From Cyclobacterium sp. SYSU L10401 (GTDB lineage: Bacteria > Bacteroidota > Bacteroidia > Cytophagales > Cyclobacteriaceae), in the NCBI RefSeq assembly GCF_010993705.1, contig NZ_WOFO01000001.1, positions 124,001-188,000 of the forward strand: a stretch of 64,000 nt of DNA, in the 5' to 3' direction. The notes beneath the pieces were generated by a model, which was not told the DNA's origin, made no database searches, and worked only from the letters and a program-made list of their open reading frames with translations. Both the position numbers and the translations under genes were made by a program. Shown piece after piece: positions 10,758 to 41,493 of this stretch; within the stretch, counting starts at the first letter, position 1, and each line of letters starts with the position of its first letter.

Positions 10758-10790
10758 TTTCAGGCCAGGCAGCATTTGTTTGGCCTGAAA
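10758..10790. repeat. Perfect inverted repeat between dehydrogenase and DUF1080 genes
   Basis: TTTCAGGCCA / TGGCCTGAAA, a 10-bp perfect stem with a 13-base loop. On the plus strand it is followed by AATTTAAA rather than a T run, so it is at best a weak attenuator or an RNA-stability hairpin in the operon. Confidence 0.55.
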
Positions 10791-10814
10791 AATTTAAACC
10801 TAAACCAGTACCCA

Positions 10815-11612
10815 ATGAAGAAATTTTCACAAGTAGCCTTGCTGGCTGCGATTTCCACGTTTGCATTTGCCTGTGGTTCAGGACAGCAAAATGATACCGA
10901 AACTGAAAGTGTGGCAGAGGCCATACAAGTTCAGGACGACAATGACGGATTTGTACAGATTTTTGACGGAAGCAGCTTAAATGGCTGGGATGGTGACCCG
11001 ACCTATTGGCGGGTGGAAGATGGAACCCTGGTGGGAGAAATTACTGAAGAGACCACCCTGGATAGGAACCACTTTATCATCTGGCAAGGTGGACAGCCGG
11101 CTGATTTCGAATTCAAGGCAGAATTTAAAATAACGGAAGCAGGAAATTCGGGGGTGAATTACCGCAGTGAGCCGGTAGAGGGCCTGGCCCATGCATTGAA
11201 AGGCTACCAGGCGGATATTGATGGCCAAAACAATTATACCGGGCAAAACTATGAAGAAAGAAAAAGGACTACCCTGGCCTATATCGGACAAAAAACCAAA
11301 ATCAATCCCCAGGAAAAGGAGGGGGACCTGAGAGCCAATGTTGAAAGAAATGCCTGGCTTGGGCTGGAAGTAGTTGAGGAACTTGGAGATCGGGAAGAGA
11401 TGAAAAAGGAGGTCAAATCCAATGACTGGAATGAAATCCATATCATCGCCAGGGGTAACAGGCTGCAGCATTTTATCAACGGTACCCTGATGAGTGACGT
11501 TACGGATGAAGATCCGGCCAACCGGACCATGGAGGGATACCTGGGCATGCAGGTACATGTAGGTCCGCCCATGCAGGTTGCCTACAAAAACATCTATTTA
11601 AAGGAACTTTGA
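10815..11612 (+). CDS. DUF1080 / 3-keto-disaccharide hydrolase-type lipoprotein
   Basis: 265 residues. The start at MKKFSQVAL gives a signal peptide and lipobox FAFAC, so the protein should sit in the periplasm or on the outer membrane. The remainder is one concanavalin-like beta-sandwich of the DUF1080 family, seen in DGSSLNGWDG, the FEFKAEFKI...NSGVNYRSE block, KGYQADID, and the end GYLGMQVHVGPPMQVAYKNIYLKEL. Characterised members cleave 3-keto-glycosides. Its neighbours (sugar dehydrogenase upstream; isomerase and Gfo/Idh oxidoreductase downstream) fit cleavage of an oxidised glycoside. The precise substrate is unknown. Confidence 0.88.
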   Translation: MKKFSQVALLAAISTFAFACGSGQQNDTETESVAEAIQVQDDNDGFVQIFDGSSLNGWDGDPTYWRVEDGTLVGEITEETTLDRNHFIIWQGGQPADFEFKAEFKITEAGNSGVNYRSEPVEGLAHALKGYQADIDGQNNYTGQNYEERKRTTLAYIGQKTKINPQEKEGDLRANVERNAWLGLEVVEELGDREEMKKEVKSNDWNEIHIIARGNRLQHFINGTLMSDVTDEDPANRTMEGYLGMQVHVGPPMQVAYKNIYLKEL

Positions 11613-11640
11613 TCATTTACTGCGATTTTTATGACCATTT

Positions 11641-11660
11641 TTTCGGGGGCAAACCCGAAA
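11641..11660. repeat. Intercistronic hairpin
   Basis: TTTCGGG / CCCGAAA with a 6-base loop between the DUF1080 and DUF4432 genes. No T tract follows on the plus strand, so an RNA-processing or stability role is more likely than termination. Confidence 0.45.
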
Positions 11661-11716
11661 GAACAGGATGGTTGGAAAAGTTAGAATAATTAAATTGAAT
11701 CCATTATTCATATTTT

Positions 11717-12784
11717 ATGGGTGAAGGCAACAAACCATGGGAAGGAAAAGTAGGTAATGCCCAACAAATAGGAGGCATTGAAACGGCTGTTTTAGATAAT
11801 GGCTCAGGTAAAGGTGTACGCATTGCCTGGATTGATACCGGAGCAGGCTTGCGATACAAGCTGGTACTTGACCGTGCCATGGATGTTGCTTCGGCATCCT
11901 TTGGGGCTCATGCCTTGTCATGGATCAGCCAGGTAGGTATTACTCCCCCTTCTCCGTTCACATCCGAAGGCTTGGATTGGTTGCGTACTTTTGGCGGCGG
12001 ACTGGTCACCACCTGTGGCTTGAGTCACGTAGGCGGTCCGGAGGAGGATGAGCAGGGAAAACGAGGCCTGCATGGCAGTATTTCCAATCTTCCCGCTGAA
12101 ATTTGTTCTGTCAAGCAGCCGGATTTAGGCAATGGAGATTTGGACATGCACATTAGCGGTATTATCAGGGAAAGCAGCGTGTTTGGCCCTCATCTGGTAT
12201 TGAAAAGGACCATTTCCGGAACCCTGGGGAAACCTTATCTTAAAATCAGGGATGAGGTCACCAATGACTCCAATCTGGCGGCTCCTCACATGTTGTTGTA
12301 CCATGTTAATTTTGGCTGGCCGCTGATTGACGAGGGAAGCCAGATCATTTGGAGTGGGAAATGGGAATCCAGGGATGGGGATCTGGAAAATCGGATATTT
12401 AATGAAAAGAATGACTTTAAATCCTGCCCTCCTCCCCTAAAGGCCCATGCAGGTTTTGGAGAGGATGTAGCCTTCATTCAACCGGAGCCGGAATCCGACG
12501 GCTTGTGCCGGGCAGGAATATATAATCCTGACCTGGGATTTGCCCTTCGGATGAGTTTCAGCAAAAATCAATTGCCCTGGTTGATCAATTGGCAACACTG
12601 GGGCGAAAATGAATATGTGACAGCCCTGGAGCCGGGAACGCATCCACCTATTGGTCAGCAGCAGGCCAGGAAGGATGGTAGCCTGATCATGCTCAAACCC
12701 GGAGAAAAGCGTCAATATGAGCTGCAATTCGATATCATAACGGGTCAAAACGACATTGCATCATTTGTAAATCATAATCAATAA
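11717..12784 (+). CDS. DUF4432 / aldose 1-epimerase-like protein
   Basis: 355 residues, no signal peptide, so probably cytoplasmic. The overall pattern (GLRYKLVLDRAMDV, LRTFGGGLVTTCGLSHVG, HMLLYHVNFGWPL, TALEPGTHPP) matches the DUF4432 branch of the galactose-mutarotase-like beta-sandwich fold. The histidine in LLYHVNFG and the glutamate in TALEPGT are at positions typical of mutarotase catalytic residues. Family members are poorly characterised; a sugar epimerase or mutarotase acting on pathway intermediates is inferred. It lies 104 bp after the DUF1080 gene and 28 bp before the cupin gene, all on one strand. Confidence 0.78.
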   Translation: MGEGNKPWEGKVGNAQQIGGIETAVLDNGSGKGVRIAWIDTGAGLRYKLVLDRAMDVASASFGAHALSWISQVGITPPSPFTSEGLDWLRTFGGGLVTTCGLSHVGGPEEDEQGKRGLHGSISNLPAEICSVKQPDLGNGDLDMHISGIIRESSVFGPHLVLKRTISGTLGKPYLKIRDEVTNDSNLAAPHMLLYHVNFGWPLIDEGSQIIWSGKWESRDGDLENRIFNEKNDFKSCPPPLKAHAGFGEDVAFIQPEPESDGLCRAGIYNPDLGFALRMSFSKNQLPWLINWQHWGENEYVTALEPGTHPPIGQQQARKDGSLIMLKPGEKRQYELQFDIITGQNDIASFVNHNQ

Positions 12785-12812
12785 GCAACAACAATAAATC
12801 TAATTAGAACCT

Positions 12813-14018
12813 ATGAGTTTGGCAAAAAAAGCATTAGAAGAGGGACAGGGCATTTTACGTTTGGCTCCTACCTGGGTACCCAGGTCTTTTTGCGTTCCCG
12901 GAAGAAGGATAAAACTGCATCCGGATGATTATTATGTACTTGGAGGAGAAAGAGGCGGTATAGATGAGCGTTGGCTTTCTTCCACTACACCGGCTGAAAA
13001 TGGCCCCCTTACCGGAAAGCATGAAGGCCTGAGCAAGGTCGTAGTCGGCGCAGCGGGTAAGGAAGAGCAGCTCCTTTTGAAAGATGTCATTGATGAATTA
13101 CAAGGGGAAATTATTGGAGACCGGATCTGGGGAGAGCACCAAAGTTGGCCCATGTATTCCAAATTTTTTGACAATATGGGTCCTTTGCCTCATCACATCC
13201 ATCACAATGATGAACATGCGGCTAAAATTGGCATGAAAGGAAAGCCGGAAGCCTACTATTTCCCACCGCAGTTAAATAACCACGGAGGTGATTTTCCTTA
13301 TACATTCTTCGGTATTGCCCCAGGTACTACCAGGGAGCAAATCAAGGAATGCCTGATGAATTTCAACAAAGGGGACAACAAAATAACCAGTTTCTCCCAG
13401 GCCTTTAAACTGGATCCGGGTACGGGTTGGGATGTGCCTCCGGGCATGCTGCATGCGCCTGGTAGCATGTGTACCTATGAGCCCCAAAAGGCTTCCGATG
13501 TATTTGCCATGTACCAATCATTGGTCAACGAAGCCATTATTCCGGAGGAGCTCCTATGGAAGGGAACTCCGAAAGACCGGATGGGTGATTTTGACCAGCT
13601 GATGGAAGTCATTGACTGGGATTTGAATGTGGATCCAAATATCCTGGAGACCAGATTCATGGCTCCTGTTCCTGTGAAAGATACCACTGCGATGGAAGCA
13701 GAAGGATTTATTGAAAACTGGATATGCTATCGGTCCGATGCTTTCAGTGCCAAAGAGCTGACGGTCATGCCCGGACAAACGGTTACGATTAAGGACAATG
13801 CGGCTTATGGCATGATCATGATGCAAGGTCATGGGACCATGGGTGTTTGGGATGTAGAGACCCCTGCCCTCATCCGATATGGACAATTGACCCATGACGA
13901 GTACTTTGTTACTGAAAAGGCGGCCAGAGAGGGAGTAAAAATCAGCAATCACTCTAAAACAGATCCGATTGTGATGCTCAAACATTTTGGTCCAGGAAAT
14001 CCAGACCTTAAACTATAA
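12813..14018 (+). CDS. Cupin / phosphomannose isomerase-like protein of unknown substrate
   Basis: 401 residues, no signal peptide. The core resembles a type I mannose-6-phosphate isomerase cupin: a histidine-rich metal site HHIHHNDEH at 127-135, a PEAYYF segment that could supply a glutamate ligand, and GWDVPPGMLHAPG (205-217) matching the family's G...PPG..HA motif. A second cupin-like half (about 275-400) contains LTVMPGQTVTI and a glycine-rich GHGTMGVWD strand. The kinase-neighbour and substrate features of classical ManA are not evident. In this locus it is probably an isomerase for a keto-sugar or related intermediate; that is inference. Confidence 0.65.
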   Translation: MSLAKKALEEGQGILRLAPTWVPRSFCVPGRRIKLHPDDYYVLGGERGGIDERWLSSTTPAENGPLTGKHEGLSKVVVGAAGKEEQLLLKDVIDELQGEIIGDRIWGEHQSWPMYSKFFDNMGPLPHHIHHNDEHAAKIGMKGKPEAYYFPPQLNNHGGDFPYTFFGIAPGTTREQIKECLMNFNKGDNKITSFSQAFKLDPGTGWDVPPGMLHAPGSMCTYEPQKASDVFAMYQSLVNEAIIPEELLWKGTPKDRMGDFDQLMEVIDWDLNVDPNILETRFMAPVPVKDTTAMEAEGFIENWICYRSDAFSAKELTVMPGQTVTIKDNAAYGMIMMQGHGTMGVWDVETPALIRYGQLTHDEYFVTEKAAREGVKISNHSKTDPIVMLKHFGPGNPDLKL

Positions 14019-14040
14019 GTATATCCTTATATATAGCGGC

Positions 14041-14068
14041 AGAATCCTGTTTTATACTGGGATTCTTT
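14041..14068 (+). terminator. Weak terminator-like hairpin
   Basis: AGAATCC / GGATTCT followed by only three T, between the cupin and isomerase genes. The remaining part of this 173-bp gap shows no other element. Partial read-through to the isomerase gene is likely. Confidence 0.35.
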
Positions 14069-14191
14069 CAGTTATTTATTAAATTGAAGGGGATTTTTGG
14101 AGGAAGATCTCCGGTAAAGAGCTGGAGACTCCTCTCAAACAGAGTTTTATTTTAATTTCAATCAATTATTCATAGTAAAAAAAATAATATT

Positions 14192-15223
14192 ATGTCCCAA
14201 AATAATTTTCCAAAGTTACATAATGCCACCTGGCCTGGAATCGTAGGAAAGGGGCCCGATTCGGAACCCATCATTTCTTTTGATGAGATGTTGGAAAACA
14301 CCGCCAAAGCGGAAGTTGACGGAGTAAAGTTTGATGGAGTGGACATAGGTCTTTTTGATCCGCATATCGATCTGGAAATGGGCGATGATGGGGTGAAAAA
14401 GCTTGTTGACAAGGTATCTTCCTACAATCTTGAAATCGGCTCGGTAGTGGCTCCTATCTGGGGAGGTCCCATATTGGGTTCAAAAGAAGACCGGGCTACC
14501 TACCTGGATTTACTGGAGAAATCCTGTAAACTGGCTTCAAAGCTCCGGGAAGCAGGAATCCGACCGAATGGAATTGTCCGGGTGGATACGGCCAGTAGTC
14601 CCGAACAATGGGCAAAGGATCCCAAAGGCAGTCAGAAGATCATCGTGGAGACCTTTAAAGAGGCTTGCAAAATTGCCGAGAATTACGGCGAAAAGTTGGC
14701 GGCTGAAGGAGAGATTTGCTGGGGAGGCATGCACAGCTGGAAAACCATGCTGGAAACCCTGGAATCCGTAGACAGTCCATACCTGGGCTTCCAGGCGGAT
14801 ATGGCCCACACCCTCTTATATACCCTGGGTTATAACTACCCAGAACACAGGATTTTGCCTGAGGGCTACGATTGGAAGGATAAATCCGTATGGAAAGCGG
14901 CATTGAAGGAAATGACCGATGCCTTGCGCCCCTGGACCATAGACTTTCATGTGGCTCAGAATGATGCCACTGTTTTTGGTTCCGGATCTCATGACAAAAC
15001 AGGCCGGCATTGTCTGGCCAATGACCCCAATGGGAAATTGGACATTGCTGAAGATGCGGGATACTGGCTGAGGGATGAAAAAGGTGAACTCACCAAAGCC
15101 TTTAACCATATCTGCTGGGACGGTTGTATGTTTCCCAATGCGGTGATGAGTAAGCAGGACACCTGGAATAACATTCTGGCTGCACTGATTCAGGTTCGCA
15201 ACGCACACGGCTGGAAGGCTTGA
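14192..15223 (+). CDS. Xylose isomerase-like TIM-barrel sugar isomerase/epimerase
   Basis: 343 residues of the sugar phosphate isomerase/epimerase (AP endonuclease 2-like) TIM-barrel superfamily, cytoplasmic. Likely metal ligands are E172 or E174 (AAEGEICW), D203 (GFQADMAHT), H253 (IDFHVAQND) and D310 (ICWDGCMF). Members beside Gfo/Idh and DUF1080 genes have been linked to 3-keto-glycoside elimination or hydration in Bacteroides and Agrobacterium, so a lyase/hydratase or epimerase role on a keto-sugar is the leading guess. It is 48 bp upstream of the Gfo/Idh gene, which makes cotranscription likely. Confidence 0.83.
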   Translation: MSQNNFPKLHNATWPGIVGKGPDSEPIISFDEMLENTAKAEVDGVKFDGVDIGLFDPHIDLEMGDDGVKKLVDKVSSYNLEIGSVVAPIWGGPILGSKEDRATYLDLLEKSCKLASKLREAGIRPNGIVRVDTASSPEQWAKDPKGSQKIIVETFKEACKIAENYGEKLAAEGEICWGGMHSWKTMLETLESVDSPYLGFQADMAHTLLYTLGYNYPEHRILPEGYDWKDKSVWKAALKEMTDALRPWTIDFHVAQNDATVFGSGSHDKTGRHCLANDPNGKLDIAEDAGYWLRDEKGELTKAFNHICWDGCMFPNAVMSKQDTWNNILAALIQVRNAHGWKA

Positions 15224-15271
15224 TCTAGATTTTCCGGATGAATCTTTATTTTCCAACAAAAATCAAAAAAC

Positions 15272-16426
15272 ATGTCAGAAAAGAAGAAAATTAGAATTGC
15301 AATGATCGGTACGGGTCTGATGGGAAGGATCCATACCAACGGATATAAGAGATTGGGAGACTTTTTCCCTGAATATGAGTACCGGCCTGTCTTGCAGGTA
15401 GCTTGCTCCAGAAGAGAAGAAAAGATCAAGGCTTTTGCCGAACAGTGGGGATATGCTTCCTATGAGACGGATTGGAAGAAGGTGATCGAACGGGATGACG
15501 TGGATGCAATAGACATTTGCACCCCGAATGATACCCATGCAGAAATCGCCATCGCCGCTGCAAAGGCAGGAAAAATGATCCTTTGTGAAAAGCCTTTGGC
15601 CAGGACCCTGGAAGAAGCCGAGGAAATGGTGAAGGTCATAGAAGGAGCCGGGGTAAGGAATACCGTATGGTACAATTACCGGAGGGTTCCGGCAGTAACC
15701 CTGGCCAAACAATTGGTGGATTCCGGAAAACTGGGTAAAATTTTTCATTACAGAGCCAATTTCCTTCAGGACTGGACCATAAGTCCTGATCTGCCTCAGG
15801 GTGGCGATGCCCTTTGGAGACTGGATGCAGATGCAGCCGGTTCAGGAGTTACGGGTGACTTATTGGCCCATTGTATCGATACAGCCATGTGGCTGAATGG
15901 GGGGATCAAAGATGTATCGGCGATGGCCGAAACATTCATCAAGGAAAGGGTCCATCAGAGTAGTGGAGAGAAGAAAAAGGTGGGTATAGATGATGCCTGT
16001 ACCTTCCATTGCCATTTTGACAATGGATCCCTTGGTTTGTTTGAAGCTACCCGCTATGCCAGGGGGCACAAAGCCCTTTATACCTTTGAAATCAATGGGG
16101 AGCATGCCTCCATCCGTTGGGACCTGCATGATTTGAACCGCTTGGAATATTTTGATCATCGGGATGAATCTGTGGTCAGAGGCTGGCGTTCCATACATGT
16201 AACCGATGCCGACCAACCTTACATGGATCGTTGGTGGATTCCAGGCACCTCCATAGGCTATGAGCATTCCTTTATTCACCAGGTGGCTGATTTCTTTAAG
16301 AGCCTGGAGGGGGACGGACCTTGTGCACCTACGTTTAAGGATGCCTATGAAACCCAAAAGGTCTGCCAGGCGGTATTGGATTCGGCAGCTTCCAGAAGCT
16401 GGAAAGATACCGGTGTGGATTGGTAA
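15272..16426 (+). CDS. Gfo/Idh/MocA-family NAD(P)-dependent sugar oxidoreductase
   Basis: 384 residues, cytoplasmic. An N-terminal Rossmann fold has the nucleotide motif GTGLMG (13-18). The catalytic lysine is K107 in CEKPLA, and the active-site D...H pair is D196/H200 in GDLLAHCID. The C-terminal alpha/beta substrate domain is full length. The family oxidises or reduces sugar hydroxyls, often at C3, with bound NAD(P). In this locus it could make or reduce the 3-keto group handled by the DUF1080 and isomerase proteins. It is the last gene of the unit and is followed by a strong terminator. Confidence 0.92.
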
Positions 16427-16457: not shown

Positions 16458-16487
16458 AATCCGGGTCAATTTGGCCCGGATTTTTTT
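16458..16487 (+). terminator. Rho-independent terminator between keto-sugar locus and ebo cluster
   Basis: Stem TCCGGG / CCCGGA with flanking AA/TT pairs, followed by seven T. It separates the two gene groups at the transcript level. Confidence 0.88.
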
Positions 16488-16592
16488 GCTTTTACCTTTT
16501 CCGATCAGGTGAAAATATGATTATTCTCAGGATTAAAAAATGGAAATATAATAAGTGTTATATTTACAGAGAATTAAAATGAACAATTGATT

Positions 16593-17477
16593 ATGGCGCT
16601 TTCTTCCATCAGGCAATTTTTGATTGCCATACTTTCCCAGGCGGCTAAGGCGGAATCCATGGGCTGGCTGGATGATCAAATAGCAAGGATAAATGGTGCC
16701 AGAGGAAATATGAAGTTATTTCTGGCATTCAGCCAGGCATCCAGGTATTTCTCAAAGGATACCTTTCAGCTTACTGATCAGCAAGTGGCTGCTGCTCAAG
16801 AATTAAGACCCGGTTTTCAGCCTTCATTCTGGACAGCACTGCAAACGGCCCGAACGGTACTGGTATTGGGGGTATTATCAGAGGAAAATGAAAGCTGGAT
16901 GCCCACTTTGGACCAGTTGTTCGAATCGGCTGACATGCACGAACTGGAGGCGCTTTATGCAGCCCTTCCTTTATATCCTTTTCCTGAAAAACTTAAAAAA
17001 AGAGCATCGGAAGGTCTCAGAACCAATATTACTTCTGTATTTGATGCCATTGCCCTGAACAACCCCTATCCATCGGAATATTTAGATGAACCTGCCTGGA
17101 ATCAATTACTGCTGAAAGCGATATTCATGCAGCGCCCACTTTACAGGATTACCGGAGCGGAGGAGAGAGCCAATGCTAATCTGGCCAAAACTTTGGTGGA
17201 TTACGTTCACGAGCGTTGGTCGGCCGGGAGAAATGTGATGCCCGAATTATGGCGCTTTCTTTCCCCTTTCGTAGATCAGGAAACATTAGGCATGTTTGAA
17301 AAAGTATTGAAAGAAGGTGATGAATTGGACCGTAAGGCGGTATCACTGGCTTGCTTTCATGGTAAGGGAGCGGAATGCAGGGAGCTGTTGGATCAGTTTC
17401 CGGATCATCTGGAAGCGATAGAAAAGGGGGAGCTGAATTGGGTGCTGGTAGGTAAAGCCTTTGATTCGGAAAGGTGA
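16593..17477 (+). CDS. eboA: EboA-type protein, first gene of ebo cluster
   Basis: 294 residues, all-helical by appearance, no signal peptide. The ATG of MALSSIRQ is preferred to a TTG two codons upstream. EboA-like conserved blocks are LPLYPFP (125-131), GLRTN (141-145), FDAIALNNPYP (150-160), AWNQLLLKAIF (168-178) and HERWSAGRNVMPELWR (206-221). The biochemical function of EboA is not known. In Nostoc the ebo genes are needed to move a scytonemin precursor to the periplasm. A TATATTTA box at 16559-16566, one base from the -7 consensus, is a possible promoter. Five further ebo-type genes follow on the same strand. Confidence 0.85.
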   Translation: MALSSIRQFLIAILSQAAKAESMGWLDDQIARINGARGNMKLFLAFSQASRYFSKDTFQLTDQQVAAAQELRPGFQPSFWTALQTARTVLVLGVLSEENESWMPTLDQLFESADMHELEALYAALPLYPFPEKLKKRASEGLRTNITSVFDAIALNNPYPSEYLDEPAWNQLLLKAIFMQRPLYRITGAEERANANLAKTLVDYVHERWSAGRNVMPELWRFLSPFVDQETLGMFEKVLKEGDELDRKAVSLACFHGKGAECRELLDQFPDHLEAIEKGELNWVLVGKAFDSER

Positions 17478-17582
17478 TATTTATCTGGTAGCAACCGTTT
17501 CCCCTTAATATGGTCCGTTCATTTGTTATTGCTATGATTTGCATATAAAAAAGTTTAGGTTAGCAGGTAAATTTGATTCATT

Positions 17583-18494
17583 ATGATGTATATCGATCCA
17601 CACATACATGTGACATCCAGGACAACAGATGACTATGAAGCCATGCAAAAAGCAGGCATTGTAGCTGTGATAGAACCGGCTTTCTGGCTGGGTCAGCCGA
17701 GGACTAAAGTAGGTAGTTTTCAGGATTATTTCAGTAGTCTGGTAGGTTGGGAAAGATTCAGGGCCAAGCAGTTCGGGATCGTCCACTATTGCACCATTGG
17801 CTTGAATTCCAAAGAGGCCAATAATGAGGCCCTCGCTGAAGAGGTGATGGAGCTCCTGCCCCTGTATGTGGGCAAGGAAGGAGTGGTGGCCATTGGAGAG
17901 ATCGGTTACGATGACCAGACTCCTGCTGAAGACAAGTTTTACCGCTTGCAACTGGAGTTGGCCAAGGAAGTTGACTTACCGGTAATGATCCACACCCCTC
18001 ACAGGGATAAAAGGAAAGGTACGGTCCGCAGTATGGATGTGAGTGAAGAGCATGGCCTGGACCCAAAAATGGTCATTGTTGACCACAATAATGAAGAAAC
18101 GGTCAAAGAAGTACTCGATAGGGGTTATTGGGCGGCATTTACCATTTACCCTCACACCAAAATGGGAAGCGAGCGGATGGTAGAAATAGTCCGGCAATAT
18201 GGTCCGGAAAGAATCATTGTGGACAGTGCTGCTGATTGGGGTATCAGCGATCCACTGGCCGTTCCCAAAACAGCTGCCTTGATGAAGGAGAAAGGGATTC
18301 CGGAAGCGCACATACAGATGACCTGTTATGGGAATGCCTTAGAGGCTTACGGGCAAAGTGGTCAAATGGAAGAAAAAGACTGGCTGGAAAAAGAGCCCAT
18401 TGATCAAACCAAAAAGCACGGGGGTAATACAGTTTTGAGAGGAGGGCAAAAGCCGCGGGTAGATAACGATTCCTCCAATATCATAGAGAATTAG
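17583..18494 (+). CDS. eboB: TatD-like metal-dependent hydrolase, EboB
   Basis: 303 residues, amidohydrolase TIM barrel of the TatD type, cytoplasmic. Putative metal ligands are all present: H7 and H9 (DPHIHV), E106 (AIGEIGYD), H137 (MIHTPH), H168 (IVDHNN) and D214 (IIVDSAADWG). An intact site suggests real hydrolase activity, but the substrate is unknown. It lies 105 bp after eboA and its stop is 8 bp before eboC. A second ATG immediately follows the first; either could be used. It is called EboB from fold and gene order. Confidence 0.85.
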   Translation: MMYIDPHIHVTSRTTDDYEAMQKAGIVAVIEPAFWLGQPRTKVGSFQDYFSSLVGWERFRAKQFGIVHYCTIGLNSKEANNEALAEEVMELLPLYVGKEGVVAIGEIGYDDQTPAEDKFYRLQLELAKEVDLPVMIHTPHRDKRKGTVRSMDVSEEHGLDPKMVIVDHNNEETVKEVLDRGYWAAFTIYPHTKMGSERMVEIVRQYGPERIIVDSAADWGISDPLAVPKTAALMKEKGIPEAHIQMTCYGNALEAYGQSGQMEEKDWLEKEPIDQTKKHGGNTVLRGGQKPRVDNDSSNIIEN

Positions 18495-18502
18495 TCTGTT
18501 TG

Positions 18503-19393
18503 ATGTCGGTAATCACTGCACACCTCAGACTCACCAGGCCTGCCAATATTGTAACGGCGATTGCCGATATTTTGGCCGGAGCTGCCATTTCTGGCGGATT
18601 GATCCTTTTCAGTCCTGAGGTAGACTGGAGCAAAATCGGTTGGTTGGTATTGTCTACTATAGGACTTTACGGTGGAGGGGTTGCTTTCAATGATGTTTTT
18701 GATGCGGAGCTGGATAAGGTGGAACGCCCGGAGCGTCCCATTCCCAGTGGGAAAGCCAGCGTAAAAAGTGCTGGTCTGATGGCCTTTTTGCTGCTTTTGG
18801 TAGGAGTATTGGCTGCCTGGCAGGTCAGTGATCAATCTGCATTTCTGGCGTTTTCGGTGGGGGTCCTGGCAGTCGTATATGATGCCTGGGGAAAACACCA
18901 ATCCTTTATAGGCCCAATAAATATGGGTCTTTGCCGGGCAGGAAATTTATTGTTGGGCATGAGTTTGGTTCAGGGGGCATGGGGAGAATTCTGGTTTATT
19001 GCCTTTATACCACTATTTTATGTCGCTGCCATTACCATGGTAAGTCGGGGGGAAGTGCACGGTAAAAACTTGAGTGCCCTGCAAGGAGGTGCATTTATTT
19101 ACGGCTGCATCATTGTGTTTATTTTTGGAGTAGCTTATTTGTACAATGACCACTGGTGGGAAAGTTTGCCATTCCTGGTATTGCTGGCTGCTTTCATTTT
19201 TCCACCATTGCTCAAGGCAATAAGGTATCAGGAGCCGGCCTTGATTGGAAAATCGGTTAAGGCAGCTGTATTGGCATTGATTATCGTTAATGCCGCCCTG
19301 GCAGCTGCCTTTGCGGGTTGGATGGTGGCTTTGGCGATCTTGCTATTACTGCCCCTTTCCCTTTTACTGGCCAAGGCATTTGCTGTCACCTAG
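18503..19393 (+). CDS. eboC: UbiA-like integral membrane protein, EboC
   Basis: 296 residues with about eight or nine hydrophobic segments. The start is the ATG of MSVITAHL, one codon after a TTG and 8 bp after the eboB stop. The first Asp-rich motif of UbiA prenyltransferases is intact (NDVFDAELD, 63-71). At the position of the second motif, usually a run of aspartates such as DRDDD, the sequence reads VSRGEVHGK (178-186), with one glutamate and no aspartate. Prenyl transfer to a small molecule is the usual guess for EboC, but the altered second motif makes ordinary prenyltransferase chemistry uncertain. Confidence 0.85.
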   Translation: MSVITAHLRLTRPANIVTAIADILAGAAISGGLILFSPEVDWSKIGWLVLSTIGLYGGGVAFNDVFDAELDKVERPERPIPSGKASVKSAGLMAFLLLLVGVLAAWQVSDQSAFLAFSVGVLAVVYDAWGKHQSFIGPINMGLCRAGNLLLGMSLVQGAWGEFWFIAFIPLFYVAAITMVSRGEVHGKNLSALQGGAFIYGCIIVFIFGVAYLYNDHWWESLPFLVLLAAFIFPPLLKAIRYQEPALIGKSVKAAVLALIIVNAALAAAFAGWMVALAILLLLPLSLLLAKAFAVT

Positions 19394-19463
19394 TGAACCA
19401 AAACAGGGTTTTATTACTTATTTATATTGAAATGAAAAGTTCTTGGGAACTGTCAAAATAAAA

Positions 19464-20624
19464 ATGAAAAAATTGGCACATCAATCGATTGAGCAGGCTT
19501 TTAATGTTCCTTTCAGGTACAAGGTGTTTTTTACCAAAAGTTTGTTTTCACCAGAAAATCAGCTTTTTGCTGACCTTGTCAAAGGGGATAAAATTCCCAA
19601 GGTTTATTTTGTTCTGGACGAAGGTGTTGTCCAACATCATCCCCATCTGATTACGGCTATTGAATCATATGCTCAGGCGAATACAACCTCCTTTACTTTG
19701 TGCGCAGAACCATTGGTGGTTCCCGGAGGGGAGCAGGTAAAAAACGATCAAAAGTATTTCCAGGAGGTTTTGAAAGCCACCCATACCTATGGCATCGACC
19801 GGCACTCCTATATCATTGGAATAGGCGGAGGAGCTTTATTGGATATGGTTGGTTTTGCAGCTGCCGTAGCCCACAGAGGGATCAGGCATATTCGCATTCC
19901 GACTACTGTTCTATCACAAAATGATTCAGGGGTAGGGGTCAAAAATGGTATCAATGCTTACGGAAAGAAAAATTACCTGGGCACCTTTGCGCCTCCTTTT
20001 GCTGTGATCAACGACCCGGAGTTTCTTCAAACCCTTGAAGAAAGGGATTGGCGTTCAGGTATTTCTGAAGCCCTTAAAGTAGCCTTGATTAAGGACGCCT
20101 CTTTTTTCGTATGGATAGAAGAACAGGCAGTCGATTTGATGGACAAAAGCCATCACTCCATGACAGAATTAATCTATCGTTGTGCCCAAATGCACCTGGA
20201 TCACATTGCTTCCGGGGATCCTTTTGAAACAGGTTCATCCAGGCCCCTGGATTTTGGACATTGGGCGGCACATAAATTGGAACACCTGAGTGACTACAAA
20301 ATCCGGCACGGTGAGGCAGTAGCTATAGGTATCGCATTGGATACTACCTATTCTTTCCTTGCTGGCATGATTTCGGAGAATGAGTTGAACAGAGTTTTGG
20401 ATCTCATCATTAAGTTGGGGTTTGATTTGTATGTGCCCGAATTGTCAGGGGATGCGCTATTAAGGGGATTGAATGAATTCCGGGAGCACCTGGGTGGGGA
20501 ATTGACCATCATGCTGCTGGATAAAATTGGTAGTGGGGTGGAGGTCCATCAGATGGATCCTGCATTAATTTTCAAGGCAGTAGAAAAATTAAACCAACTA
20601 CAGGTGGCCTATCAAAAAGCCTGA
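19464..20624 (+). CDS. eboD: Dehydroquinate synthase-like sugar phosphate cyclase, EboD
   Basis: 386 residues, cytoplasmic; start at MKKLAHQS. NAD site: PGGEQVKN (87-94) and GGGALLDMVGF (121-131). Metal ligands of dehydroquinate synthase are conserved as E202 (GISEALK), H266 (DFGHWAAH) and H282 (RHGEAVA). The usual VGGKT segment reads VGVKN (157-161, in QNDSGVGVKNGIN). That difference and the ebo context suggest a non-shikimate cyclase of the DHQS superfamily acting on a related sugar phosphate. It is 70 bp after eboC and 37 bp before eboE. A shikimate-pathway aroB is expected elsewhere in the genome. Confidence 0.87.
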   Translation: MKKLAHQSIEQAFNVPFRYKVFFTKSLFSPENQLFADLVKGDKIPKVYFVLDEGVVQHHPHLITAIESYAQANTTSFTLCAEPLVVPGGEQVKNDQKYFQEVLKATHTYGIDRHSYIIGIGGGALLDMVGFAAAVAHRGIRHIRIPTTVLSQNDSGVGVKNGINAYGKKNYLGTFAPPFAVINDPEFLQTLEERDWRSGISEALKVALIKDASFFVWIEEQAVDLMDKSHHSMTELIYRCAQMHLDHIASGDPFETGSSRPLDFGHWAAHKLEHLSDYKIRHGEAVAIGIALDTTYSFLAGMISENELNRVLDLIIKLGFDLYVPELSGDALLRGLNEFREHLGGELTIMLLDKIGSGVEVHQMDPALIFKAVEKLNQLQVAYQKA

Positions 20625-20661
20625 TCAGCTCTTTTACAAATTTTAAAGGAAATACCGGACC

Positions 20662-21870
20662 ATGCAAATTGAAGATTATCACCTTACTTATTGTACCAAC
20701 ATACATCCAGGAGAAAGCTGGGAGGCTACTTTCAACAACCTGAAAAACCATGTACTTAAGATAAAAGCTGAACTTGCTCCTGATAAGCCCTTTGCCATTG
20801 GTCTCAGAATATCGGATGAGGCCAGCAAGGAACTGGTAGCCAATAATGAATTGGAAATACTTACTTCCTGGCTTGATGCCCACAATTGCTATGTATTTAC
20901 CCTAAACGGTTTTCCATACGGTGGTTTTCACAGGCAAGTGGTCAAGGATGAAGTACATCATCCGGATTGGTCCAGCAGTGCCAGAAAAGAATATACCCTT
21001 CGCTTATTTGATATCCTTTCCGCCATCATGCCGGATGATATGGATGCCGGAATTTCTACTTCCCCTTTGAGTTACAAACATTGGCATAAAAGTGAAGCAG
21101 CCAGGAATGAAGTTTTGCAAAAATCCTGCACCCATATCATGGAAGTGGTGGACCGGCTGTACCAGCTTAAGTTGGAAAAGAATCAAATCCTGCACCTGGA
21201 TATAGAGCCGGAACCCGATGGAATGATTGAGAATTCCTCCGGGCTGCAGGCCTTTTTCGAAAATTGGCTGCTTCCGCAAGGCATTCCGCTGCTGACCAAA
21301 ATGCACGGTGTTTCTCCCGGGGAAGCCAGGGGAATTATCCTGGATCATGTGCGGGTTTGTTATGATGTATGCCACTTTGCTGTAGCTTATGAAGATCATC
21401 AGACCGTATTGGATAATTTCAAAAAAGAAGGCATTAAAATTGGAAAGTTCCAGCTGAGTGCGGCTTTAAAAATAGCGATTCCAGAGGAGATCAGCGAAAG
21501 GAAGATGGTGGAAAAGGCCTTGTTGCCCTTTGTAGAATCCACCTATCTGCACCAGGTAATAGGTAAATCAGCTGGCGAAAAACTGACCGCCTACCCCGAC
21601 CTGCCGGATGCCCTGCTGGGCCTGGCCGATACCCGGGAAAAGGAGTGGCGCATACATTTTCACGTTCCGGTATTTTTGCCTAACTATGGCACCCTTCAAT
21701 CCACCCAGGAGGATATTCTGGCCGTTTTGGATCTGAACGGACAACACCACTTTACCAGTCAGCTGGAAGTAGAAACCTATACCTGGGAGGTCTTGCCGGA
21801 AGATATCCATTTATCCCTTGACCAGTCCATTATAAGAGAGTTGGAATGGGTGAAAAAACATATCAAATGA
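20662..21870 (+). CDS. eboE: Metabolite traffic protein EboE, TIM-barrel
   Basis: 402 residues, no signal peptide, xylose isomerase-like TIM-barrel character. Distinctive blocks are HLTYCTNIHPGE (7-18), LNGFPYG (81-87), HHPDW (99-103), LDIEPEPDG (179-187), CYDVCHFAVAYED (233-245) and GKFQLSAAL (261-269). These are candidate metal/active-site segments, with E182 and H238 as likely ligands. The reaction is unknown. Its TGA stop overlaps the ATG of eboF (ATGA), a strong sign of translational coupling. Confidence 0.87.
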   Translation: MQIEDYHLTYCTNIHPGESWEATFNNLKNHVLKIKAELAPDKPFAIGLRISDEASKELVANNELEILTSWLDAHNCYVFTLNGFPYGGFHRQVVKDEVHHPDWSSSARKEYTLRLFDILSAIMPDDMDAGISTSPLSYKHWHKSEAARNEVLQKSCTHIMEVVDRLYQLKLEKNQILHLDIEPEPDGMIENSSGLQAFFENWLLPQGIPLLTKMHGVSPGEARGIILDHVRVCYDVCHFAVAYEDHQTVLDNFKKEGIKIGKFQLSAALKIAIPEEISERKMVEKALLPFVESTYLHQVIGKSAGEKLTAYPDLPDALLGLADTREKEWRIHFHVPVFLPNYGTLQSTQEDILAVLDLNGQHHFTSQLEVETYTWEVLPEDIHLSLDQSIIRELEWVKKHIK

Positions 21871-23234
21871 AAAAAACTGTAGTACTAAATGTCGTGGCAC
21901 TTTCTGGTAGGGTGCTCGGGGAGCACACGCCCTTCCTGAGCCAATGGATAGGAAAGCGCAAGCAATCTGCCATCAAACCGGTACTTCCTGCTGTCACTTG
22001 TTCCTCCCAATCTGTTTATTTGACAGGTAAGTGGCCTCAGGAAAACGGGATTGTCGGTAATGGTTGGTATTTTAAGGATGAATGTGAAATTAAATTTTGG
22101 AGGCAGTCCAATCATTTGGTACAATCTCCCAAGGTCTGGGATGCGCTGAAGGCTGAGGATCCCAATTTTACTTGTGCCAACATGTTTTGGTGGTACAACA
22201 TGTATTCTACGGTCGATTATGCCGTTACGCCAAGGCCTTTATACCCTTCAGATGGCAGAAAGCTACCGGATATCCACAGTCAGCCCATGGATTTGCGGGA
22301 CCGTTTACAAAAGGAGCTGGGCCAGTTCCCTCTTTTTTCTTTCTGGGGTCCAAACGCCAACATTGCCTCCTCCAGGTGGATTGCAGAAGCCTCCATGAAG
22401 GTAGACGAATGGCATGATCCCACCCTTACTTTCATTTACCTTCCGCACCTGGACTACAGCTTGCAAAAATACGGAATTGATTTTGACCATATCGGTAAGG
22501 AACTGAAGGAAATTGATGCCTTGTGTGAGCGGTTGATTAATTATTATGAAAATCAGGGGGCAGAGGTCATCCTGCTTTCCGAATATGCCATCACCTCAGT
22601 GAGCCAACCCATACACATCAACCGGGCCCTCAGAAAGGCCGGTTACATACAAGTGAAGCAGGAGTTGGGATTGGAAACCCTGGATGCCGGGACGAGCAAG
22701 GCATTTGCCGTTTCAGACCATCAGATCGCCCATATTTACATCAATGATCCAGCAGAAAAAGAAACCGTAAAAGCCTTGGTCCAGGAAATCCCCGGTGTGG
22801 AAATGGTTTTGGATAGGGACGAAAAGGAATCCTATCACCTGAATCATGAAAGGGCTGGAGACCTGGTGGCAGTAGCAGACAAGGATTCCTGGTTTACTTA
22901 TTATTATTGGCTGGACGACCAAAAGGCGCCTGACTATGCGCGGACAGTGGATATTCACCGGAAGCCCGGTTATGACCCGGTAGAAATGTTTGCCAATCCG
23001 GACATCAAATTTTTAAAGGCCAAATTGGGTTGGACCCTGTTGAAGAAAAAGCTGGGCTTCAGGTATTTGATGGATGTCATTCCTCTGGATGCTTCCCTGG
23101 TTAAAGGTTCTCATGGAAGGGTTAGCGAAAGCGAGCTTGATTGGCCAGTTTTGGTTACTCCTGGTGAGACCCAGGGAAATGTTGAACCGACAGCGATTTT
23201 TTCCCTGATATACGATCAGGTGATGGAAAAATGA
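21867..23234 (+). CDS. eboF: Nucleotide pyrophosphatase/alkaline phosphatase-superfamily protein, EboF
   Basis: 455 residues; start at MKKTVVLNVV within the ATGA overlap with eboE. The fold family is recognised from PAVTCSSQSVYLTGKWPQENGI (41-62; T44 at the nucleophile position), YLPHLDYSLQKYG (191-203), LLSEYAIT (236-243), DIHRKPGYDP (362-371) and GSHGR (414-418). Several usual metal ligands are changed: no aspartate in the first strand (VVALSG), Q200 where histidine is expected, and E239-Y240 where Asp-His is expected. H364 and H416 remain. No signal peptide is seen. It may bind or act on a phosphorylated ebo intermediate; catalysis is uncertain. Confidence 0.85.
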   Translation: MKKTVVLNVVALSGRVLGEHTPFLSQWIGKRKQSAIKPVLPAVTCSSQSVYLTGKWPQENGIVGNGWYFKDECEIKFWRQSNHLVQSPKVWDALKAEDPNFTCANMFWWYNMYSTVDYAVTPRPLYPSDGRKLPDIHSQPMDLRDRLQKELGQFPLFSFWGPNANIASSRWIAEASMKVDEWHDPTLTFIYLPHLDYSLQKYGIDFDHIGKELKEIDALCERLINYYENQGAEVILLSEYAITSVSQPIHINRALRKAGYIQVKQELGLETLDAGTSKAFAVSDHQIAHIYINDPAEKETVKALVQEIPGVEMVLDRDEKESYHLNHERAGDLVAVADKDSWFTYYYWLDDQKAPDYARTVDIHRKPGYDPVEMFANPDIKFLKAKLGWTLLKKKLGFRYLMDVIPLDASLVKGSHGRVSESELDWPVLVTPGETQGNVEPTAIFSLIYDQVMEK

Positions 23235-30971: not shown

Positions 30972-32561
30972 ATGTTAAAATCTACCATAGACCCGGCCTG
31001 TACCGGTTTGTTTTCAACTTTATTTTTAGACTATATTCAACATAAAAAGGAATTAAAACACTTTTATCAGGAGTTTCCGGAACTGGGGCATTTCAAAAAA
31101 GCCATTGCAGAGAAGGCTTTTGACCAGGAAAAGAGAAATACCCTTGTAAGGGTTTTGAAGGAGCAATATACTGGCTTTGATTCCTCCCGGGTCAGTAGCA
31201 ATATTGACAAACTAAAGCAGCCCAATACCTTTACCGTGACCACCGGGCACCAATTGAACCTGATGACAGGGCCTTCTTTTTTTATCTACAAAATAGTTTC
31301 CACCCTTTTATTGGCCAAAAAGCTACAGGAGACTTATCCAGATTGTCACTTTGTGCCCGTTTATTGGATGGCCTCTGAGGACCATGATTTTGAAGAAATC
31401 AATCATTTTCATTTTGACGGAAAGGAATATCGCTGGGATTCCGATCAGAAAGGGCCTGTGGGTGATTTTGTATTGGACAAGTCTGTTAAGCAACTGATGC
31501 AGGAATGGGATTTTCTGCCCGATTTTTTTAGGGAAGCCTATACCCACAGCAAATGCCTGAAAGAAGCGGTTAGAAAATACGTGCACCATTTATTTGCCGA
31601 TCAGGGTTTGGTGATTCTCGATGCCAACGATAAGGCATTGAAAAAATCATTCTTGCCCATTATTAAGGATGATCTGTATTCCCAAAAGGCCAATGAGCTG
31701 GTCAAACAGCGCAATGAGGCATTGCAAGCTGCCGGGTACCCTACACAGATATTCCCCAGAGAGATAAATTTTTTCTACATGGAGCCAGGAAGAAGGGAAC
31801 GATTGATTCACCAGCAAGGTCTGTTCAGGACCCATGATGGGAAGGATGAATGGACAGAAAAGGAGATGGAGTCCCTGCTGGAAGAATATCCGGAAAAATT
31901 CAGTCCTAATGTAGTCATGCGTCCCTTATATCAGGAAGTCGTTCTTCCCAATTTGGCTTACCTGGGAGGGCCGGCAGAAATTGCTTATTGGTTTCAACTG
32001 AAGGGAGTTTTTGACCACTATAAGGTCGATTTTCCTTTCCTTTTGCCGAGAAATTTTGCCTTGATCGTTCCAAGGGTAATCCAGCGAAAGATAAAAAAGT
32101 TGGGTTTCAAACCCGAAGAGCTTTTTTTATCCGTCGATAAGCTAAGGGTTGATTACGTTTATGAGCACTCAGAGGAAGATTTAAAATTATTGCAGGAAAA
32201 AGAACAGCTGAAAAGCCTGTTTTTGTCCCTGGAAGAAAAGGCTGGTGGTCTGGACAGTACTTTGATATATGCGGTGAAGGCCGCACTGAACAGGACTGAT
32301 AAGATTATCAATCAGTTGGGGGTGAAATTCAGGAAAGCTGCGGAGCGCAAGCAAGAGGATGCTGTCAGGCAGATATTTGAAATAAAAGAAGGTTTGTTTC
32401 CCAACGGAACCTTGCAGGAAAGAAAGGTCAATTTTCTGGAATTTTATTTAAAGGATAAAAGTTTTATTGACGGGCTTTACAAAACATTTGATCCTTTGGA
32501 TTTTAATTTCATAATTTTGCAGGAGGATGGAAGCGAAGAAAGAGCTAAGGAAGACTTTTAA
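30972..32561 (+). CDS. bshC: Bacillithiol biosynthesis cysteine-adding enzyme BshC
   Basis: 529 residues, the usual length. It joins cysteine to glucosaminyl-malate to finish bacillithiol, the low-molecular-weight thiol of Firmicutes and many Bacteroidota. Recognised from VTTGHQLNLMTGPSFFIYKI (about 91-110), PVYWMASEDHDFEEINHF (about 128-145) and YLGGPAEIAYW in the middle, with a coiled-coil C-terminal part. Cytoplasmic. The last 35 bp overlap the start of the formyltetrahydrofolate cyclo-ligase gene in another frame. Confidence 0.94.
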   Translation: MLKSTIDPACTGLFSTLFLDYIQHKKELKHFYQEFPELGHFKKAIAEKAFDQEKRNTLVRVLKEQYTGFDSSRVSSNIDKLKQPNTFTVTTGHQLNLMTGPSFFIYKIVSTLLLAKKLQETYPDCHFVPVYWMASEDHDFEEINHFHFDGKEYRWDSDQKGPVGDFVLDKSVKQLMQEWDFLPDFFREAYTHSKCLKEAVRKYVHHLFADQGLVILDANDKALKKSFLPIIKDDLYSQKANELVKQRNEALQAAGYPTQIFPREINFFYMEPGRRERLIHQQGLFRTHDGKDEWTEKEMESLLEEYPEKFSPNVVMRPLYQEVVLPNLAYLGGPAEIAYWFQLKGVFDHYKVDFPFLLPRNFALIVPRVIQRKIKKLGFKPEELFLSVDKLRVDYVYEHSEEDLKLLQEKEQLKSLFLSLEEKAGGLDSTLIYAVKAALNRTDKIINQLGVKFRKAAERKQEDAVRQIFEIKEGLFPNGTLQERKVNFLEFYLKDKSFIDGLYKTFDPLDFNFIILQEDGSEERAKEDF

Positions 32562-40476: not shown

Positions 40477-40516
40477 TTATTTTGTGTTTATCGGGAGCAT
40501 TTAAAATGGGAAATCA

Positions 40517-41491
40517 ATGAAGAATATTTTTAGCGTTTTTGGATTTTTAATGGTTTTTAGTGGATTGGGGTTTAATATTGCTGAAGCCCAGCAGTTGCCC
40601 CAATTCAGCCAGTACATGTTCAATGGATTGCATATCAATCCGGCTTATGCAGGATATAAGGGAGAGCACTACATTCAATCTACTTACCGTAGTCAGTGGG
40701 CCGGATTGCCAGGAGCCCCCACTACTTTTACCCTTACAGCTGATTTGAGTGCCAATGAGGGTTTGATGGGCTTTGGTGCTTCTATACTCGCCGATGAGCA
40801 AGGTCCTGCCAAAACCAATTCCGGTTTATTGACGTATGCCTACAGGATCCAAACGGGGAGTGCCTCATTTTTGGGCTTTGGAATAAGCGGAGGCGTCACG
40901 GAATATGCCATTGACGGTTCCATGTTTAATCCCAATGATTTTGATGATGCAGAAATTCCTGAAGGAAGGATCAACTTATTTACTCCGAATTTGAATACCG
41001 GGGTGTTTTTTCACAGTCCGGATTTTTTCGCTGGTTTTAGTGCCTATAACCTGATCGGTCGGAATGCTTTGGAAAATGAAGCGGTAGCACTGGCTTACCA
41101 CAATGTGCATTATTACCTGACCGCAGGTGGCTTGTTGCCCCTTTCCGATCAGGTGCAGTTCAAGCCTTCCTTTTTATTGAGAAATGGAGGAAGCGGGCCG
41201 AGCAATCTGGATTTAAATGGGATGTTTTTGTTTATGGACAGGATATGGGCAGGGGCTTCCTACCGTACCAATCTCAAGTTGGGACAAAATGAATTGCCTG
41301 AAGGTTTGTCTGCCAGAAATGCCGTAGCATTGATCCTTGAATTGTTTGCCACAGAAAACCTCAGGTTAGGTTACGCCTATGATGTGCAGACCAATGCATT
41401 CAGTGGTTTAAGAAATAATTCCCATGAAATCTCCATTGGCTACTATATTTCTCCAAGAAAAGTGAATATGAACAACCCTAGATGGTTCTAA
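40517..41491 (+). CDS. PorP/SprF-family type IX secretion membrane protein
   Basis: 324 residues with signal ending at AEAQQ. The family start motif LPQFSQYMFNGLHINPAYAG follows at once, then an outer-membrane barrel ending in NNPRWF. PorP/SprF proteins assist secretion or anchoring of particular T9SS type B cargo, here presumably the 971-aa protein 40 bp upstream. Its stop is 2 bp before the next ATG, so the three genes form an operon. Confidence 0.93.
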   Translation: MKNIFSVFGFLMVFSGLGFNIAEAQQLPQFSQYMFNGLHINPAYAGYKGEHYIQSTYRSQWAGLPGAPTTFTLTADLSANEGLMGFGASILADEQGPAKTNSGLLTYAYRIQTGSASFLGFGISGGVTEYAIDGSMFNPNDFDDAEIPEGRINLFTPNLNTGVFFHSPDFFAGFSAYNLIGRNALENEAVALAYHNVHYYLTAGGLLPLSDQVQFKPSFLLRNGGSGPSNLDLNGMFLFMDRIWAGASYRTNLKLGQNELPEGLSARNAVALILELFATENLRLGYAYDVQTNAFSGLRNNSHEISIGYYISPRKVNMNNPRWF

Positions 41492-41493
41492 AT

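Follow-up and report, generated by a model that had tools for sequence, protein, structure and literature searches.

What do the six genes of the ebo cluster make, and what is their product for? That question has stood since 2016, although ebo genes are found across several phyla and also in plastids. The window analysed here, a 64,000-nucleotide stretch of the Cyclobacterium sp. SYSU L10401 genome, carries a copy of the cluster through which this question can be approached by comparison.

The ebo locus and its relatives

The cluster spans 16593-23234 and consists of six + strand open reading frames arranged in the established order ABCDEF, and the reading frames and family scores bear out the complete six-gene set claimed in the initial annotation. 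It is intact and of a kind already known, ebo clusters in Bacteroidota having been published in 2016 (PMC5133447). This copy is one more member of the ABCDEF-type operon of Bacteroidota, Cyanobacteria, Leptospira and eustigmatophyte plastids described in the same paper, with the same six genes, order and strand; no feature sets it apart, and its neighbours are genus-specific. The features are as follows.

16458-16482, + strand: terminator-like hairpin, 11-pair stem and T run, separating the upstream sugar genes from eboA
16524-16552, + strand: weak promoter-like site, TTCTCA-17-TATAAT, 5' of eboA
16593 (ATG) or 16587 (TTG)-17477, + strand: eboA, all-helical protein (NF035938 match)
17583-18494, + strand: eboB, TatD-like metal-dependent hydrolase (PF01026 match)
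18503 (ATG) or 18500 (TTG)-19393, + strand: eboC, UbiA-fold membrane protein (NF035940 match)
19464 (ATG) or 19443 (TTG)-20624, + strand: eboD, sugar phosphate cyclase (PF01761 match)
20662-21870, + strand: eboE, xylose-isomerase-like TIM barrel (NF035939 match)
21867 (likelier start) or 21846-23234, + strand: eboF, NPP-fold protein with altered metal site (PF01663 match)

Spacing is tight only from eboB onward, eboA and eboB being separated by 105 bases, and an ATGA at 21867-21870 holds both the stop of eboE and the likelier start of eboF; the tight spacing and the overlap are as previously noted. The hairpin before eboA is to be read as a suggestion, the scan for terminator-like sites having returned 5 against 8.9 expected in shuffles. 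The promoter-like scan returned 17 sites where shuffles gave 12.4 (sd 3.4), which makes the one before eboA weak; a Bacteroidota-type promoter pattern gave 6 matches against 3.7 expected, none of them before eboA. Four sugar genes at 11717-16426 lie upstream. In a comparison of flanking genes, which the initial annotation had suggested, they adjoin ebo in each of the 11 further genomes from the genus and in none of the 33 other fetched loci (some of which end at contig ends). As genus-only neighbours with a terminator-like hairpin in between, they were rejected as part of the ebo system.

The six genes were also found together in other genomes, as anticipated: 45 of 118 relatives contain all six, 71 contain none, and the two with a part of the set are fragmented drafts, at presence thresholds (1e-60 for EboB, 1e-40 for EboD and EboF) that were set against paralogues and so miss remote homologues. 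The EboD matches of G016 and G083 (just 36% and 35%) were excluded as AroB-like, and EboD was counted in 46 genomes. Loci were fetched from 44 of the 45 other EboE-positive genomes, leaving out G088 (a 3.3-kb contig), and 31 of these 44 have all six genes in identical order and on the same strand, which is more than chance would give. Ten genomes retain the full set spread across at least three sites, which speaks against a mere hitch-hiking operon. That the six genes encode one pathway is strongly supported by this all-or-none presence together with the complete retention in scattered genomes.

EboD and its actinobacterial counterpart

EboD belongs to PF01761 (122.9 bits; cut-off 24.2) and to NF004852 (580.6; cut-off 333), and its family is named 3-dehydroquinate synthase (DHQS) by NCBIfam. 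By score, the nearest solved structures are DHQS, with four chains ranking above ValA. By contrast, EboD stays under the aroB cut-off (TIGR01357, 239.2 of 305), and in the alignment H251, S/A266, D270 and H349 are unlike the DHQS chains compared, with loss of positions that DHQS fills with Lys and Arg. D270 and H349 are present in all 39 sequences and align with Asp and His of ValA at sites where DHQS differs, sites which we take to be the ValA-type (sedoheptulose-7-phosphate cyclase) positions; at His277 EboD is as DHQS, whereas ValA has Pro. A separate true AroB is encoded elsewhere in the host genome (344.8 bits, over the cut-off), and on this ground EboD was rejected as the housekeeping DHQS. 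The earlier description of EboD as a DHQS-like cyclase thus holds for the family, but not for the residues at the compared sites or the aroB model, and caution is warranted in naming it a 3-dehydroquinate synthase. From its residues, EboD is probably a sugar phosphate cyclase with a heptulose 7-phosphate as substrate.

A second line of evidence comes from Streptomyces and relatives, where the SCO3242-type cluster (synthase-C-isomerase-A-B-E-F) contains the EboA domain, orthologues of EboB, EboE and EboF, and a UbiA-like protein, but differs in having an inositol-phosphate synthase and an additional isomerase-like gene, and in lacking EboD. The actinobacterial loci were the best 80 of 581 from a Streptomyces-first query, 20 of them (under 15 kb) being left out of the counts. 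EboD is absent from all 60 long loci, and a divergent inositol-phosphate synthase is adjacent in 47; of the 13 genomes without an adjacent copy, 12 encode it elsewhere, and the draft genome G127, which has the cluster, contains no synthase of this type. A second set comprised 296 genomes of the phylum, including the centre G123, picked for carrying ebo. The two sets are partly dependent, since the G123 locus (L166) shares sequence with L090 from the first one; G433 was left out because its two pieces score under the cut-off. Of 47 plasmid records with EboE, 8 were examined. Beside EboD-type clusters no inositol-phosphate synthase gene was seen, whether in the window, in 44 loci of Bacteroidota or in 7 from plasmids.

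In Actinobacteria, EboD is replaced by a dedicated paralogue of inositol-phosphate synthase, an unrelated ring-forming family in the same slot. The paralogue is distant from housekeeping INO1 (43.7 bits of 638), and we infer that it forms a ring as inositol-phosphate synthase does. The exchange of one ring-making family for another, together with the ValA-type residues at two sites, the lost DHQS Lys and Arg and the separate host AroB, suggests that EboD makes a cyclitol, which would plausibly be the acceptor of EboC. The prenylated cyclitol reading first proposed for this locus gains support from the exchange, the ValA-like residues and the separate AroB. In Actinobacteria the prenyltransferase comes from a sister family (347 bits to SCO3242, 99.3 to the EboC model with its cut-off of 250), and because of this and the extra isomerase-like gene, the two versions may make different products.

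The other Ebo proteins

EboB matches TatD (PF01026, 63.2 bits; cut-off 27), with weak similarity to TatD itself, and has the TatD-like metallohydrolase ligand set HxH, E, H, H, D; residues H7, H9, E106, H137, H168 and D218 are invariant in 118 aligned sequences, three of the sites having a gap or two. Profile searches, which might have placed EboA and EboE in unrelated families, assigned them to their own: EboE matches NF035939 (488.5 bits; cut-off 250), and EboA matches the domain model NF035938 (172.9; cut-off 50) and falls below the stricter subfamily NF035937 (269.4 versus 320). A Pfam search gave no match for either at E <= 0.01. The AF2 model of EboE (pLDDT 93.7) is a xylose-isomerase-like TIM barrel, with 72 PDB matches at E <= 0.001 (best E 1e-6), all 50 of the matches listed being xylose-isomerase-like by description. 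The best match is Art22, and others include IolI, IolE and AsbF, enzymes acting on rings; the matches point to no single reaction. The EboA model (pLDDT 96.2) is all-helical and helical-repeat-like, yet had no match among PDB folds at E <= 0.001, and the suggestion of a TPR protein (PMC6282210) was not adopted.

EboF has the NPP fold (PF01663, 188.1 bits; cut-off 23). The NPP catalytic set was presumed to comprise a nucleophile Thr and six metal ligands, four of these seven residues being replaced in EboF by V, Q207, E246 and Y247, nearly invariantly across 113 sequences (numbering from the longer frame at 21846). In common with NPP-type phosphodiesterases (PDB 2gsn), EboF retains the Thr (T51), one Asp and one His (GxHG), the latter placed by motif, beyond the aligned region. 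By its catalytic residues EboF falls outside these phosphodiesterases. Of the initial label, NPP/alkaline phosphatase-like, the fold stands and the usual two-metal site does not; because that site is gone, 'phosphatase-like' says little about the reaction, and naming EboF a phosphatase warrants caution.

In Nostoc punctiforme, whose cluster has the same gene families and serves scytonemin export, the scytonemin monomer stays in the cytoplasm with the same phenotype in each ebo mutant studied; the Nostoc eboD, located away from the cluster, was not among the genes tested in that study (PMC6282210). In the window, the 26 genes scanned include no scytonemin gene, in agreement with the initial annotation. 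The uniform Nostoc phenotype, the EboCAB complex suggested in the same paper, the helical-repeat-like EboA and the altered EboF metal site could also be accommodated if the Ebo proteins were themselves a small-molecule translocation machine, in which EboC would sit at the membrane together with EboA and EboB, the enzyme folds mattering little. This is unlikely: EboB ligands and EboD cyclase residues are invariant, the exchange of EboD for inositol-phosphate synthase would be needless for a pure transporter, and PMC6282210 itself prefers a lipid carrier or cofactor.

The membrane protein EboC (NF035940, 407.8 bits; cut-off 250) was annotated as UbiA-like and prenyltransferase-like, which is borne out for the first Mg motif but not for the second. 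NDxxDxxxD is intact (N64, D65, D68 and D72 in 85 of 86 sequences, one gapped), whereas the second Asp-rich motif of UbiA prenyltransferases is absent, a basic residue (82/86) and Glu (E185, 85/86) standing at the place where the alignment would put it. EboC homologues from Maribacter, Zobellia and Algoriphagus farnesylate 8-hydroxyquinoline-2-carboxylic acid in membrane fractions, accepting farnesyl diphosphate in vitro, in assays with crude membranes and a chosen acceptor panel (PMC9235831). The known acceptor is thus an aromatic ring rather than a cyclitol.

The one-motif site invites comparison with mycobacterial Rv3806c, in which one Mg is held by Asn73 and Asp77, with no second Mg (PMC10994848). 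EboC might by analogy be a one-metal UbiA variant placing an activated ring or sugar onto polyprenyl phosphate, an option named by Yurchenko 2016 (PMC5133447), with no prenyl transfer from a diphosphate. This appears quite unlikely, given 19.1 bits to the Rv3806c family against 407.8 to its own, digeranylgeranylglyceryl phosphate synthase as best solved relative, and the activity with farnesyl diphosphate. A prenylated aromatic or quinoline product, with EboD as the dehydroquinate synthase of its NCBIfam name and the farnesylated quinoline as precedent, is very improbable in view of the missing DHQS residues, the separate AroB, the actinobacterial synthase, which is a route to no aromatic ring, and the crude membranes and chosen acceptors of those assays.

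A proposed pathway

We infer that the ebo product is an isoprenoid-linked cyclitol, a reading previously proposed (PMC5133447). EboD would cyclise sedoheptulose 7-phosphate or a close relative into a C7 keto-cyclitol, as its residues and the actinobacterial swap suggest; EboE, as a metal-dependent xylose-isomerase-like barrel, may isomerise, epimerise or dehydrate the ring, to judge from its fold; and EboC, by analogy with its family, would couple the ring to an isoprenyl chain within the membrane. EboB would act as a metal-dependent hydrolase, its ligands being intact, EboA as a helical adaptor with no known catalytic fold, and EboF, with its altered metal site, may work with one metal, or in binding, on an intermediate that carries phosphate. 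From the published Nostoc mutants, the product is probably a lipid cofactor or carrier of the cytoplasmic membrane needed for the export of another metabolite. For this explanation as a whole, synthesis and export role together, our confidence and our doubt are evenly balanced. The farnesylation by EboC homologues and the likeness of EboE to enzymes acting on rings count in its favour. Observations that run against it are the DHQS-like H277 of EboD and its DHQS relatives among solved structures, the non-standard EboF and EboC sites, the aromatic acceptor of the EboC assays, the EboE fold matches, which point to no single reaction, and the lack of a synthase in G127, as well as, in Actinobacteria, the sister-family prenyltransferase, the extra isomerase-like gene and a synthase far from INO1.

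Nothing about the window's own cluster is out of the ordinary, and the new part is the comparison of mechanism, which narrows the chemistry of ebo in that two unrelated ring-forming enzyme families fill one slot. As a tentative and still doubtful extension, ebo may represent a widespread, unrecognised class of pathways to cyclitol-lipid cofactors, with C7 (EboD, starting from sedoheptulose 7-phosphate) and inositol (actinobacterial synthase paralogue) versions, in which a one-metal EboC would join ring and isoprenoid, EboF would bind or process the product, and the lipid would aid the export of diverse secondary metabolites.

The ebo cluster and its surroundings

Six genes lie in a row on the + strand at 16587-23234 in the ORF reading of the window, and family searches identify their products as EboA, TatD-like EboB, UbiA-like EboC, EboD of the dehydroquinate synthase (DHQS) superfamily, EboE and EboF (PF01663), which bears out the six consecutive same-strand ebo genes of the initial annotation. 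EboA passes its domain model; its score of 269.4 bits with a stricter subfamily model, under the cut-off of 320, counts against the assignment. The cluster is a well-preserved member of an already known cluster type. Features in and around it are as follows.

10776-16426, sugar-gene run of five genes: 3-keto-disaccharide hydrolase (PF06439), DUF4432, a protein without Pfam match, xylose-isomerase-like barrel, Gfo/Idh oxidoreductase
16458-16482, hairpin and T run separating eboA from the sugar genes upstream (terminator scan)
16524-16552, promoter-like site upstream of eboA (promoter scan)
16593, 18503, 19464 and 21867, +, likely ATG starts (sequence inspection)

The hairpin and promoter-like site are suggestions only, since the terminator scan gave 5 sites where 8.9 were expected and the promoter scan 17 where 12.4 (sd 3.4) were.

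In the flank comparison proposed with the initial annotation, all six genes occurred together and in ABCDEF order in 31 of 44 Bacteroidota loci. The sugar run, which looks like a keto-sugar breakdown set, lies beside ebo in this genus only (four of its five genes tested): the four upstream genes (11717-16426) adjoin ebo only in the 11 other genomes of the genus, and the downstream TMEM220 and PfkB genes also follow ebo at L049, L053 and L054, three loci beyond these. Elsewhere the window encodes a BshC-type bacillithiol biosynthesis protein (30972-32561) and, at 37561-43869, a large protein that carries a type IX secretion signal domain, and then PorP/SprF and an OmpA-family protein.

Co-occurrence and an actinobacterial replacement of EboD

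The host genome measures 5.9 Mb. Among 118 relatives, EboA, EboC (over cut-off), EboD and EboE are each present in 46 and EboB and EboF in 47, EboD being counted at identity of at least 45% with two AroB-like matches left out. The initial annotation had staked its reading on co-occurrence in other genomes; all six genes are found in 45 relatives, none at these cut-offs in 71, and partial sets in two drafts of ~720 and ~900 contigs (G088, B-F; G019, A, B and F), counts which are not independent, as the genomes are related by kinship, and to which no probability is attached. Ten genomes of five families (G074, G075, G090, G093, G094, G101, G105, G108, G109 and G112) retain all six although the genes lie at three or more separate sites; G075 is a single contig of 9.0 Mb, while most others are drafts whose contig ends may conceal neighbours. 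Because scattered genes still stay together in presence, this is strong evidence for one shared function, EboD included. In the Nostoc ebo study, EboD is outside the genes tested (PMC6282210). The EboC frame of G109 (C1:433051-434124; open frame 368 aa) gave three separate matches, with short stretches between them unaligned.

A Streptomyces plasmid region contains inositol-3-phosphate synthase, an SCO3242-family prenyltransferase, an isomerase-like gene, EboA, EboB, EboE and EboF, with EboD absent. In all seven other plasmid regions examined (Deinococcus, Ketogulonicigenium, Mycetohabitans, Azospirillum, Salipiger twice, Roseivivax) the cluster includes a gene annotated as 3-dehydroquinate synthase, with products 46-56% identical to EboD (six compared; one Salipiger copy left out). 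Salipiger sp. CCB-MM3 carries clusters on two plasmids (L081, L082), and the Ketogulonicigenium vulgare cluster (L078) sits on an IncP plasmid that is typed as conjugative.

Among 60 actinobacterial loci of at least 15 kb, from the best 80 of 581, EboD occurs in 0, the synthase gene in 47, an extra isomerase-like gene in 58, and A, B, C and F in 59, 60, 56 and 58. The 13 loci that have no synthase gene beside them all come from Streptomyces by their titles; 12 of these genomes encode a synthase of this type at another place (56-60% identical to the gene of locus L076), and none of that type was found in G127. Whole-genome searches of 37 of the 60 found no full-length EboD in any; the matches were at 27-36%, with one piece of ~115 residues at 42%. 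In a second set of 296 genomes of the phylum, taken to lessen query bias and including the ebo-bearing centre G123, EboE is over cut-off in 13 genomes at 15 loci, 13 of them with the synthase gene; EboD was found in 0 of these 13 genomes (matches 29-36%). Two Actinobacteria have two ebo-like loci each, G123 (L166, L174) and G282 (L168, L169), and the two synthase-less loci are the second loci of these genomes, whose other locus has the gene. Conversely, the synthase gene was found at 0 of 44 Bacteroidota loci, at 0 of the seven other plasmid loci and nowhere in the window.

Both inositol-phosphate-synthase domains of the L076 synthase pass their cut-offs, but with the model of the mycothiol INO1 family (cut-off 638) it reaches 43.7 bits; on these scores it is a divergent, dedicated paralogue of putative exact reaction. 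The adjoining prenyltransferase passes the cut-off of the SCO3242 family, not that of EboC. In a search that covered little of the subscription literature, no publication linking ebo genes with inositol was found, and 'inositol' is missing from the main text of the ebo papers examined; within this literature, the EboD/synthase swap looks previously unreported.

Active-site residues and predicted roles

All 39 EboD sequences compared carry Asp at D270 and His at H349, and these align with Asp and His of the sedoheptulose-7-phosphate cyclase ValA (chain 4P53). The corresponding residues are Ala and Thr in chain 5tpr, and Asn and Val in the dehydroquinate synthase 3zok. We take ValA D281 and H360 to be the EEVS/DDGS-distinguishing sites, consistent with a six-residue chain offset. 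Two such fingerprint sites are described in a vertebrate EEVS paper (PMC4426668). H251 and S/A266 of EboD occupy the places of a Lys and an Arg in the DHQS chains 3okf and 6lk2 (the 5eks alignment is displaced by one at the first site); H277 is the same as in DHQS. These Lys and Arg residues presumably bind the DAHP carboxylate. Since D270 and H349 are ValA-like, the Lys/Arg sites altered and H277 DHQS-like, EboD is probably a heptulose-phosphate cyclase, neither DHQS nor a standard EEVS. The heptulose idea was reached earlier from a tree by Yurchenko 2016 (PMC5133447). One Salipiger EboD (L081:7073-8974) has 633 residues, whereas the remaining named copies have 390-426.

In EboC, N64, D65, D68 and D72 are conserved in 85 of 86 sequences, the remaining one being gapped; the expected place of the second Asp-rich motif holds a basic residue in 82 of 86 and Glu in 85. 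Its closest solved relative is digeranylgeranylglyceryl phosphate synthase, an enzyme that makes prenyl ethers. According to two studies, the UbiA fold can function with one Mg (Rv3806c, PMC10994848), and EboC homologues farnesylated a quinoline in membrane fractions, purification being unsuccessful and change of the conserved Arg145 without effect (PMC9235831).

EboB keeps TatD-type ligands in alignment. The EboA model is confidently all-helical (pLDDT 96.2, pTM 0.91), with no fold match in the PDB at E <= 0.001; Arg, Lys or Glu make up 8 of its 13 invariant residues, which would fit a protein that binds a partner or an anionic ligand. Deinococcus sp. QL22 lacks EboA and has a protein of 112 residues (L077:7809-8147) in its place, the situation that Yurchenko 2016 describes for EboG (PMC5133447). 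The EboE model is also confident (pLDDT 93.7), and its fold matches, among 50 listed, include Art22, IolI, IolE, AsbF and many xylose isomerases, a range that does not fix its reaction.

For EboF (numbered from the longer frame), what we take to be the catalytic set of NPP chain 2gsn (D54, T90, D210, H214, D257, H258, H363) corresponds to V17, T51, D203, Q207, E246, Y247 and H423, the last assigned by its GxHG motif beyond the printed alignment. All but V17 (111 sequences) are invariant in 113 of 113 sequences. Because it is so strongly conserved, the site is judged to be in use, and EboF would hardly be an ordinary two-metal NPP; with PF01663 matched and four of the seven canonical residues replaced, its NPP/alkaline phosphatase-like label is put in doubt.

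Overall, the comparison makes the phosphatase label of EboF doubtful, and for EboD and EboC it favours the published isoprenoid-cyclitol hypothesis, under which the product and its cellular role are predictions.
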